Positions 8,124 through 38,441 of a DNA stretch of 38,441 nucleotides are shown here, piece by piece. The position numbers and the translations under genes are program-made. The stretch is from NCBI GenBank assembly GCA_004322275.1, contig SCTA01000037.1, forward strand, positions 1-38,441, given 5' to 3'. The DNA is from a bacterium. GTDB taxonomy: Bacteria; Desulfobacterota; Deferrisomatia; Deferrisomatales; BM512. Below the pieces are notes generated by a model, which was not told where the DNA came from, did no database searches, and saw only the letters and a list, made by a program, of their open reading frames with translations. Position 1 is the stretch's first letter. The number at the start of each line of letters is the position of its first letter.

Positions 8124-9593
8124 TCAGCTTGAAAGGCCCGCCGAGGCCATCTTCAGGGCGCGGATCATCGCGCCCGACTTGTGCAGCGTCTCTTCGTACT
8201 CGAAGGCGGGGGAGGAATCGGCGACGATGCCCGCTCCCGCCTGAAGGTATATCTTACCCCCGGAAAAGAGAATCGTGCGTATGGTGATGCAGGTGTCGAG
8301 GTTGCCGTCGAAGCCGATATACCCGACAGCGCCCGCATAGACGCCCCTTTCGCGCTCCTCCAGCTCCGCGATTATCTCCATCGCCCTTACCTTGGGAGCG
8401 CCGGAAACGGTGCCCGCGGGGAAGGTCGCCCCGAGCACGTCCAGCGCGTCCAGTCCCTCCCTCACCTTCGCGGAAACGGTGGAGACGAGGTGCATTACGT
8501 GGGAATAGCGCTCGACGGTGAAGGATTCCTCCAGCCGCACTGCGCCCGGTTCCGCTATCCTCCCGAGGTCGTTTCGCCCCAGATCCACCAGCATCACGTG
8601 CTCCGCCCGCTCCTTGGCGTCGGCCAGAAGCTCTTTTTCGAGCGCCAGATCCTCGGCGGAATCGACCCCCCTGCGCCTCGTTCCGGCTATCGGCCGCACC
8701 AGCGCCCTGCCGTCCTCCACCCTCACCATAACCTCGGGGCTCGCACCGACGAGAACCTCCTCGCCCATAGCGAGGTGAAAGAGGTAGGGACTGGGATTGA
8801 GGGTGCGAAGCGCCCGGTAGACGGTGAAGGGGTCTACCTCGCCCTCTCCCTCGAAGACCTGCGAGAGGACTATCTGTATGGCCTCGCCCGCGAAGATCTC
8901 CTCCTTCGCCTTTTCGACCATCTTCTCGAAGCGCTCGCGGGGGATTACCGGGGCTATCTTCACCTCGCCGCCGGGAGGGGGGAAAGCCTCCTCCTCTCTG
9001 AGTTCCGCCTTCAGGAGGGAGAAAATCCTCCCTGTTTCGGCCACGCCCTCTTCAAAAGCCTTTTCCGGGTCGCTCCCAGGCCGCGATAATACGATGATGT
9101 CGAGCGTCTTAAGGGCGTTGTCGAAGGCGAGGAGCTTTCCGGGGGCGAAAAGGCGGATGTCGGGGAGCCCGGCGGGGTCTATCTTCCTCGGGGGAAGGCG
9201 CTCGAAGAGGCGCGCGGAGCCGTAGCCGAAATAGCCGACGAGGCCGCCGCAGAAGCGGGGAAGGCCGGGAATCCTCGGCATGGCGTTTTCTTTTACCGCC
9301 TTGCGCATAAGTTCGAGGGGGTGGCCCTTTACGGTCTCGCCGCCCGGAACCGTGAGGGTTCCCTCTTCGTCTCTGCCCTCGACTATCAGCAGCGGATCGT
9401 AACCGACTATCGAATAGCGCCCCCACCGCGTGCCGCCCTCTACCGATTCGAGGAGAAAGGACCAGTTGCCCTTCGCCGTCTTCAGGTAGGTGGAAACCGG
9501 GGTCTGGGTATCCGCCGGGATTCGCCGGACGACCGGTATGAGCGGATATTTTTTCGCCTCTTTCAGATAGGTCTCTTTCGTGGTCACGAGCAT
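8124..9593 (-). CDS. trpE: Anthranilate synthase component I
   Basis: This 489-residue enzyme converts chorismate and ammonia to anthranilate, the committed step. The start is the ATG at 9593, with AAAAGGA about ten bases upstream. The frame continues upstream but would translate the 181-bp repeat. The N-terminal LLESVEGGTRWGRYS carries the LLES tryptophan-binding element used for feedback inhibition in this family. The chorismate-binding half shows GASPEVMVRVEDG, IAGTRRRG, DLGRNDLGRI and FPAGTVSGAPKVRAME. It is the first structural gene after the leader. Confidence 0.97.
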   Translation of the reverse strand: MLVTTKETYLKEAKKYPLIPVVRRIPADTQTPVSTYLKTAKGNWSFLLESVEGGTRWGRYSIVGYDPLLIVEGRDEEGTLTVPGGETVKGHPLELMRKAVKENAMPRIPGLPRFCGGLVGYFGYGSARLFERLPPRKIDPAGLPDIRLFAPGKLLAFDNALKTLDIIVLSRPGSDPEKAFEEGVAETGRIFSLLKAELREEEAFPPPGGEVKIAPVIPRERFEKMVEKAKEEIFAGEAIQIVLSQVFEGEGEVDPFTVYRALRTLNPSPYLFHLAMGEEVLVGASPEVMVRVEDGRALVRPIAGTRRRGVDSAEDLALEKELLADAKERAEHVMLVDLGRNDLGRIAEPGAVRLEESFTVERYSHVMHLVSTVSAKVREGLDALDVLGATFPAGTVSGAPKVRAMEIIAELEERERGVYAGAVGYIGFDGNLDTCITIRTILFSGGKIYLQAGAGIVADSSPAFEYEETLHKSGAMIRALKMASAGLSS

Positions 9594-9612: not shown

Positions 9613-9793
9613 AGGGCTTGTCCGTAAATAAAACCTTCGTTCTCGCATCCGGCTTTTGGCCCGCTTTTGCCGCTCATCAATCGCAAAACCTCGACGTAGA
9701 ACAACTACGCCTGCGGTTTTGCTCAGTCTTCGCGCCAAAATCGATCTCAAAATCCGGCGCGATCTCCGAAAGGCTTATTTACGGACGAGCCCT
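9613..9793. repeat. 181-bp repeat with 18-bp terminal inverted repeats, inside trp leader
   Basis: The terminal repeats AGGGCTTGTCCGTAAATA (9613-9630) and TATTTACGGACGAGCCCT (9776-9793) pair at 17 of 18 positions. The centre holds a nested stem GCAAAACC/GGTTTTGC around the tip GTAG-AACAA-CTAC. A second, near-identical copy in inverted orientation begins at 38314. It has no coding capacity and looks like a non-autonomous element or intergenic structured repeat. It separates the trp attenuator from trpE, adding about 180 nt of untranslated RNA to the mRNA. Confidence 0.8.
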
Positions 9794-9800
9794 AACGCAT

Positions 9801-9836
9801 AAAAAAAGCCGCGGAATTTTTAGTTCCCGCGGCTTT
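9801..9836 (-). terminator. Second intrinsic terminator in the trp leader
   Basis: On the minus strand, arms AAAGCCGCGG (9836-9827) and CCGCGGCTTT (9814-9805) enclose an A/T-rich loop, and the T run covers 9807-9801. This is a textbook intrinsic terminator placed between the first attenuator hairpin and trpE. Its 5' arm is also complementary, over seven bases (CCGCGGG, 9832-9826), to the 3' arm of the first terminator, so the two structures may be mutually exclusive or linked. Confidence 0.85.
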
Positions 9837-9845
9837 GATTGCCTT

Positions 9846-9916
9846 AAAAAACCGCGGGCGGCCAACCGGGCCGCCCGCGAGACGTTTAATTTTGGGTAAA
9901 CGACTGCGGCCGGCCC
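9846..9916 (-). promoter_or_regulatory. trp attenuator (antiterminator and first terminator)
   Basis: The first terminator has arms CGCGGGCGGCC (9879-9869) and GGCCGCCCGCG (9863-9853), followed by six T residues (9851-9846). The competing antiterminator uses GGGCCGGCCGC (9916-9906), which starts in the trpL stop codon, and GCGGGCGGCCC (9878-9868); ten of eleven positions pair. A further stem, GGCTGTGG inside the Trp codon run with CCGCAGTC (9909-9902), pairs over eight positions with two G-U pairs. That would sequester the antiterminator arm when the ribosome does not stall. This is the classical peptide-leader attenuation layout. Confidence 0.88.
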
Positions 9917-9969
9917 TATCTCCAGGTCCACCACAGCCAGTTGGAATTTACGTGTCTTTGGTCGCTCAT
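9916..9969 (-). CDS. trpL: trp operon leader peptide
   Basis: A 17-residue reading frame, MSDQRHVNSNWLWWTWR, starts at the ATG at 9969 and ends in TAG. Four of its last seven residues are Trp, including a Trp-Trp pair. Ribosome stalling at these codons during Trp shortage would cover the first stem and let the antiterminator form. The frame was too short for routine gene calling and was found by reading the minus strand upstream of trpE. A weak Shine-Dalgarno-like GATGGA lies about six bases upstream. Confidence 0.92.
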   Translation of the reverse strand: MSDQRHVNSNWLWWTWR

Positions 9970-10001: not shown

Positions 10002-10031
10002 ACCCTACCAGAGAGCCCGTTTGGCAGTCAA
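10002..10031 (-). promoter_or_regulatory. Probable sigma70-type promoter of the trp operon
   Basis: On the minus strand, TTGACT (10031-10026) and TAGGGT (10007-10002) are separated by 18 bp. The expected transcript would begin about 25-30 bases before trpL. The -35 is good and the -10 weak. An alternative TATAA-like word lies closer to trpL at 9993-9998. No TrpR-type operator dyad is evident. Confidence 0.5.
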
Positions 10032-38313: not shown

Positions 38314-38441
38314 AGGGCTTATCCGTAAATAGGCCTTTCGGAAATCGCGCCGGATTTTGAGAGCGATTTTGTCGCGAAGATTGAGTAAAACCGCAGGCGT
38401 AGTTGTTCTACGTCGAGGTTTTGCGATTGATGAGCGGCAAA
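38314..38441. repeat. 181-bp repeat, second copy, cut by the window end
   Basis: This begins AGGGCTTATCCGTAAATA three bases after the preceding stop codon. It matches the minus strand of the element at 9613-9793 almost base for base (ACCGCAGGCGTAGTTGTTCT in both), up to the last base of the window. About 53 bp of the element, including its other terminal repeat, should lie just beyond the end. Confidence 0.8.

Follow-up and report, generated by a model that had tools for sequence, protein, structure and literature searches.

A tryptophan leader from Desulfobacterota with two consecutive terminators that are probably coupled by a ribosome-mediated relay

Attenuation is usually drawn as a single decision at a single terminator. 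In the E. coli type trp leader (RF00513) the decision follows from the position of the ribosome on a leader peptide with Trp codons, and from the pairings 1:2, 2:3 and 3:4. Serial decisions before trp genes are made by the tandem T-box leaders of Gram-positive trp operons, which are tRNA-binding RNAs. According to PMC4335068 (citing Kwak et al. 1991), the macrolide-sensing ermK leader of Bacillus licheniformis, which precedes a Firmicutes resistance gene, attenuates transcription through a leader peptide and has two intrinsic terminators next to each other. The Salmonella mgtCBR leader combines two attenuators in one leader, and its two ORFs sense ATP and proline independently and additively (PMC3641672). 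For the rimP-leader of Gammaproteobacteria, excerpts of PMC2965389 describe a second terminator in tandem, one of the two having an antiterminator; an amino-acid leader peptide is lacking there, and no terminator linkage is reported in those excerpts. The trpB motif (RF04312), a riboswitch candidate of Firmicutes and Fusobacteria, likewise has two hairpins, the second of which is a terminator (PMC11109978).

The window analysed here is a stretch of 38,441 nucleotides (contig SCTA01000037.1 of assembly GCA_004322275.1) from a bacterium of the Deferrisomatales. Its trp leader lies 5' of an operon with the order trpE-G-D-C-F-B and shares with the E. coli type all of the elements named above, and classical trp attenuation is sufficient to account fully for segments 1-4. 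The window differs in having a second terminator, 5:6, the 5' arm of which can pair with segment 4. It resembles ermK in its two terminators, but its Trp codons point to tryptophan and not to macrolides as the signal. With mgtCBR it shares the presence of two attenuators in one leader, whereas the two signals of mgtCBR are independent; with the tandem T-box leaders it shares serial decisions 5' of trp genes, but it does not match a T-box model. The first-pass annotation had stated that known peptide-leader trp attenuators use a single terminator. Among peptide attenuators more widely, two terminators have a precedent in ermK, and the arrangement is therefore treated here as a variant of ribosome-mediated attenuation.

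Table 1. Coordinates of the leader, the operon start and the inserted element in the window.
Feature	Position	Strand	Remarks
Candidate promoter TTGACT-18-TAGGGT	10002..10031	-	Putative; read by eye, missed by the consensus scan
Leader peptide ORF MSDQRHVNSNWLWWTWR*	9916..9969	-	Predicted by sequence; ATG 9969, in-frame alternative ATG 9978
Segment 1, four Trp codons	9922..9939	-	Partner of segment 2 in the untranslated leader (whole-leader fold)
Segment 2, antiterminator 5' arm, GGGCCGGCCGC	9903..9916	-	First base 9916 is the final base of the stop codon
T1 core, segment 3 (9879-9869) and segment 4 (9863-9853)	9853..9879	-	U-tract to 9847
Segment 4 portion of the relay helix, CCCGCGGUUUU	9848..9858	-	11-bp pairing with 9836-9826
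T2, segments 5 and 6	9805..9836	-	Core 9808-9833; U-tract to 9801
Segment 5, T2 5' arm and partner of segment 4, AAAGCCGCGGG	9826..9836	-	Conserved in relatives
179-bp MITE, inverted ends GGGCTTGTCCGTAAATAA, TTA flanks	9614..9792		Inserted between T2 and trpE
trpE, first gene of trpEGDCFB	8124..9593	-	Start ATG 9593

The leader peptide of 17 residues with four Trp codons, and the antiterminator arm beginning in its stop codon, were both recovered as first annotated (Table 1), within the region 9985-9798 of the minus strand. The predicted ORF 5' of the trp genes has 17 codons, with Trp codons at 9939, 9933, 9930 and 9924, and ends with TAG at 9918-9916. Both terminators were also confirmed, as adjacent intrinsic terminators behind the leader peptide. 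T1 has an 11-bp stem of -25.7 kcal/mol followed by GTTTTTT. The T2 core has -15.8 kcal/mol, its stem is lengthened to 9836-9805 by A-U pairs, and TTTTTTT comes next. Both were scored as terminator-like; the region holds four sites of this kind, whereas shuffled sequence would give 1.2. A consensus scan found no promoter-like site between T1 and T2.

The first-pass annotation had noted a 7-bp match between CCCGCGG (9858-9852) and CCGCGGG (9832-9826). The complementarity is exact, and the actual helix is longer, reaching 11 bp by pairing of the U-tract with AAAG (-17.8 as hairpin). Compared with composition-preserving shuffles, the complementarity of 4:5 in the window had a z of -3.9 (0/200). 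Segment 4 pairs equally well with 7% of the unrelated terminators elsewhere in this genome, so the window sequence by itself is only suggestive, and the case for 4:5 is carried by comparative data. A caution that CCGCGG is self-complementary was right about the palindrome, but relatives whose arms are not palindromic remove the concern, for example CCCACGGCTT:AAGCCGTGGG in L015 and CACGGCCTTTTTT:AAAAAAGGCCGTG in L023. Together with the permutations described below, these rule out a palindromic chance match as the source of 4:5.

Folding of the leader with a ribosome blocking defined positions was in keeping with the proposed switch. A stall at 9939 or 9933 led the RNA of the window to form 2:3 (12 bp), a duplex of -25.9 kcal/mol, and then 4:5. 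A ribosome placed at the stop codon gave both T1 and T2; the 2:3 antiterminator and the 3:4 terminator were thus mutually exclusive between stall and stop positions. In the untranslated leader (fold of 9969-9801), 1:2, T1 and T2 formed.

We consider it probable that the leader is a ribosome-mediated attenuator in which two consecutive terminators are coupled by a relay. With ample Trp, the ribosome would reach the stop codon of the leader and cover segment 2, upon which 3:4 (T1) would form and most polymerases would stop. Polymerases that read through would keep 3:4, so that 5:6 (T2) would form and give a second chance of termination. When Trp is scarce, the ribosome would stall at the Trp codons, 2:3 would form and segment 4 would be left single-stranded. 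Free segment 4 could then pair with segment 5 as soon as this emerges; segment 6 would find its partner occupied, T2 would fail and trpEGDCFB would be transcribed. One ribosome decision would in this way set both T1 and T2, with termination multiplied in the repressed state and the induced state unpenalised.

The distribution of the arrangement was followed through TrpE searches, which gave about 220 loci with upstream DNA included. By a loose pattern, Trp-rich leader ORFs were present at 120 of 226 loci. In 55 leaders, which represent about 24 families, such an ORF was followed by tandem terminators, with the two hairpins separated by about 9-43 bases. Loci present in two collections were counted once, for example L008 and L070, the latter a Deferrisomatales MAG (JAJRUI010000107), and L168, a false pair, was left out of all tests. 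The 4:5 helix was kept in all 55 tandem trp leaders, the weakest being those of L013 (-10.0 kcal/mol) and L004 (-12.0 kcal/mol). Relatives with a second terminator but without 4:5, named in the first-pass annotation as evidence against a relay, were sought and not found. Within the order of the window, L002-L008 carry a Trp-rich leader ORF at the same position and tandem hairpins. Upstream of trpE in L009 and L010, from one genus of this order, a recognisable Trp leader or terminators were not found, and in G001, the single other genome of the window's genus, trpE is a fragment at a contig edge. About ten families have a Trp leader with a single terminator and no T2 (e.g. L012, L019, L027, L058, L163). 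A single terminator was also seen in other phyla, except in three MAGs named Actinomycetota (L072-L074). TrpE of these MAGs is 60-61% identical to that of the window, and their tandem leader, SWWRWPDTRG, is of the Deferrisomatales type, which hints at a transfer of operon and leader between phyla.

T2 might instead be a plain back-up terminator, uncoupled from the ribosome and lowering basal read-through at all times, with its likeness to T1 a relic of duplication. Tandem terminators do exist elsewhere: L365, in the window's own genome, stands behind the apparent end of a short HU-like gene, has no amino-acid-rich leader and resembles an ordinary double terminator at the end of a gene. Segments 3 and 5 also share GCCGTG in many families, as expected from duplication. 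An uncoupled T2 would, however, reduce induced expression too, and 4:5 keeps pace across families despite differing loops and inner arms. In family f10, in L002 and in L223, segments 3 and 5 are now unlike, yet both still pair with segment 4. We regard a plain back-up function as unlikely.

The coupling of T2 to the ribosome through 4:5 was examined by a family-level permutation, in which one leader was taken per family and the T2s were swapped across families. The native 4:5 duplex was at -18.9, compared with -15.8 +/- 0.6 for swapped partners (0/5000). After correction for composition the z values were -4.21 for native and -3.28 +/- 0.25 for swapped pairs (0/5000). Comparison of relatives, proposed earlier as a check on covariation, came out in favour of the native partners. 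With stem arms alone, without the U- and A-tracts, 4:5 departed from permutation by 4.8 sd and 2:3 by 4.4 sd. Across families 4:5 therefore covaries as strongly as the classical 2:3, a level reached by 0/3000 permutations, and since 2:3 is a functional pairing already known, it serves as an internal yardstick that 4:5 matches. The 3:6 combination departed by 3.7 sd across families, also with stem arms alone, as a consequence of 3:4 and 5:6. The control combination 2:5 showed no departure under the same treatment, which rules out that segment 5 is conserved through pairing with segment 2. Within families the effect for 4:5 was modest (19/5000, 6/10 families). Pairing of segment 4 with T2 loop bases was not enriched, and a general pairing of this kind is unsupported. 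Among same-genome alternatives, the native 4:5 came within the best 0-7%. A common genomic terminator stem was ruled out, as none of 256 strong terminators in six sampled genomes began with GCCG[TC]G. The anatomy and conservation of the leader, and the complementarity and covariation of 4:5, were in this way observed directly, in the sequence and by comparison.

In 19 leaders of the GCCGTG type, 97.7% of the 4:5 cells were paired and 96.3% of those of T2's own stem, compared with 39-47% when slid. No covariation of 4:5 was observed in this class, since 4:5 hardly varies there. The T2 5' arm, GCCGTG, never varies, whereas some positions of the T2 3' arm drift to G-U or mismatch (e.g. L023, L091, L193, L195, L208, L222). 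This difference between segment 5 and its T2 partner arm suggests that segment 5 is held by more than T2; this also argues against a plain back-up terminator, as segment 5 is at some positions more conserved than its T2 partner. The same invariance could reflect a protein site, for NusA or a specific regulator, if the shared T1/T2 stem motif and not 4:5 were the object of selection, and a NusA-linked terminator motif is discussed for rimP leaders in excerpts of PMC2965389. A protein site is nevertheless very improbable, as the motif differs among families (GCCGCGG, GGCCCCGGG, GTTGTGG, GGCTATGG) with the pairing retained, and as the T1 arm is already accounted for by its pairing with segment 2.

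Coupling through 4:5 also places demands on timing. In the starvation fold, 2:3 with 4:5 (11-13 bp) was the minimum-energy structure while the 3' end moved from 9826 to 9810, and with the ribosome stalled 5:6 became the minimum only once the last bases of the T2 3' arm emerged. In 44/55 native leaders the 4:5 helix equalled or exceeded the T2 core in stability, compared with 309/660 (47%) of swapped combinations. Once T2 has emerged in full, equilibrium favours T2 over 4:5 both in the window and in the majority of leaders, and the relay must therefore be kinetic. The 2:3 antiterminator of E. coli likewise works kinetically. A polymerase that has reached the T2 U-tract keeps roughly 9-14 bases covered, and 4:5 would thus have the advantage while termination is decided. 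With 90% of the T2 3' arm out, 4:5 was still the minimum in 69% of native leaders, compared with 54% for unrelated terminators of the same genome. Co-transcriptional timing of the minimum-energy fold thus discriminates weakly; it was set aside as proof of a relay, and the weak separation counts in favour of a back-up terminator. Termination at both hairpins, timely formation of 4:5 and a multiplied regulatory range are inferred. The relay proposed in the first-pass annotation gains support from the retention of 4:5 in 55/55 leaders and from the family-level permutations, as a reading of sequence.

The U-tract of T2 is poor in 7/55 leaders, which counts against the relay. T2 might act mainly on the trpE mRNA, affecting its translation or its stability from a position immediately 5' of the ribosome-binding site, and not as a terminator. 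Such an action would suit the many relatives in which T2 lies shortly 5' of the trpE start and some GC-rich T2s without a U-tract (L005, L006, L008), but it is the least probable of these readings, as at least 5 U in 8 follow 48/55 T2s, and a 179-bp MITE parts T2 from trpE in the window.

This MITE sits within the transcribed leader. The genome holds about 23 substantial copies, and the copy at 9614-9792 folds at -93 kcal/mol. T2 is not part of the element, which starts at 9792, past the U-tract; relatives have T2 without the MITE. Further copies are located at 38314-38441 of the window, at the ends of contigs C7, C10, C24 and C27, and at the ends of contigs C29, C35, C36 and C40. Because many contigs start or end inside its copies, the MITE probably broke the assembly (G000, 2.88 Mb, 45 contigs) at many contig ends. 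In L017, which belongs to another family of the relatives, a long inverted-repeat element of about 200 bp likewise lies between terminator and trpE.

Tandem hairpins were further searched with a covariance model, R1, built from the two hairpins of 19 trp leaders, without the ORF, and applied to 247 genomes from the phylum. Of the best 20 matches, those inspected each consisted of two hairpins in tandem preceded by a Trp-rich leader ORF. In L340 the hairpins lie 5' of a DAHP synthase gene that is itself about 1 kb upstream of trpE. Twenty further matches were taken from outside the known trpE set. Among these, Trp-rich leaders preceded genes for DAHP synthase, TrpB-like, TrpD and TrpE, and Phe/Tyr-rich leaders preceded genes for DAHP synthase (L353, L358), an aminotransferase (L363, MSFFYFFYFYFNRGHP) and ADH synthase (L367). 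Tyr-rich leaders were found in L349 (...GYYYYGYLRR) and L351, 5' of periplasmic binding proteins of the branched-chain amino-acid type; runs of Tyr codons and tandem terminators before such proteins suggest a tyrosine-regulated transporter. At least four F, W or Y in the eight residues just 5' of T1 were present in 13/20 of these non-training matches, compared with 11/256 ordinary terminators. The 4:5 pairing also covaried in the non-training set (0/5000), although the model itself favours such arms. The match in the window's own genome was L365, the double terminator described above. The system is not confined to trp, the setting that the first-pass annotation had described: judged by their sequences, the tandem is also present behind Tyr- and Phe/Tyr-rich predicted leader ORFs of aroF, transporter and aminotransferase genes. 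Less securely, it may stand behind branched-chain-rich leader ORFs of ilvB, as Val- or Ile/Leu/Val-rich candidate ORFs precede acetolactate synthase in L357 and L360. The 30 best ilvB loci, chosen without the model, had essentially no leader attenuators, so a branched-chain use would be a minority.

No Rfam family matched the leader above its gathering cut-off. RF00513 had no match in the window, and the best relative reached 23.4 bits with a cut-off of 41. The T-box model had no match in the window either, where a single tRNA was the only RNA found. RF04312 gave weak matches on two relatives, with scores of 23.5 for the window, 38.9 for the best relative and 41.8 elsewhere in the phylum; as no genome of the phylum was over the cut-off of 59, membership was ruled out. 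Linked terminators in amino-acid leaders were not described in the full-text literature searched, outside which subscription papers and older proteobacterial comparisons mostly lay, and the relay may have been described before.

On balance, we lean towards the view that relay attenuators, with 2:3 followed by 4:5, control Trp, Tyr, Phe and some branched-chain genes throughout the Desulfobacterota and had not been described before. The relay appears widespread in a phylum with little-studied amino-acid regulation. If the proposal is true, RNA alone would pass one ribosome decision on through two terminators in series, so that repression would be tighter while induction stays full. The leader is short enough for transplantation into E. 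coli and may provide a simple rule for designing RNA switches that leak little.
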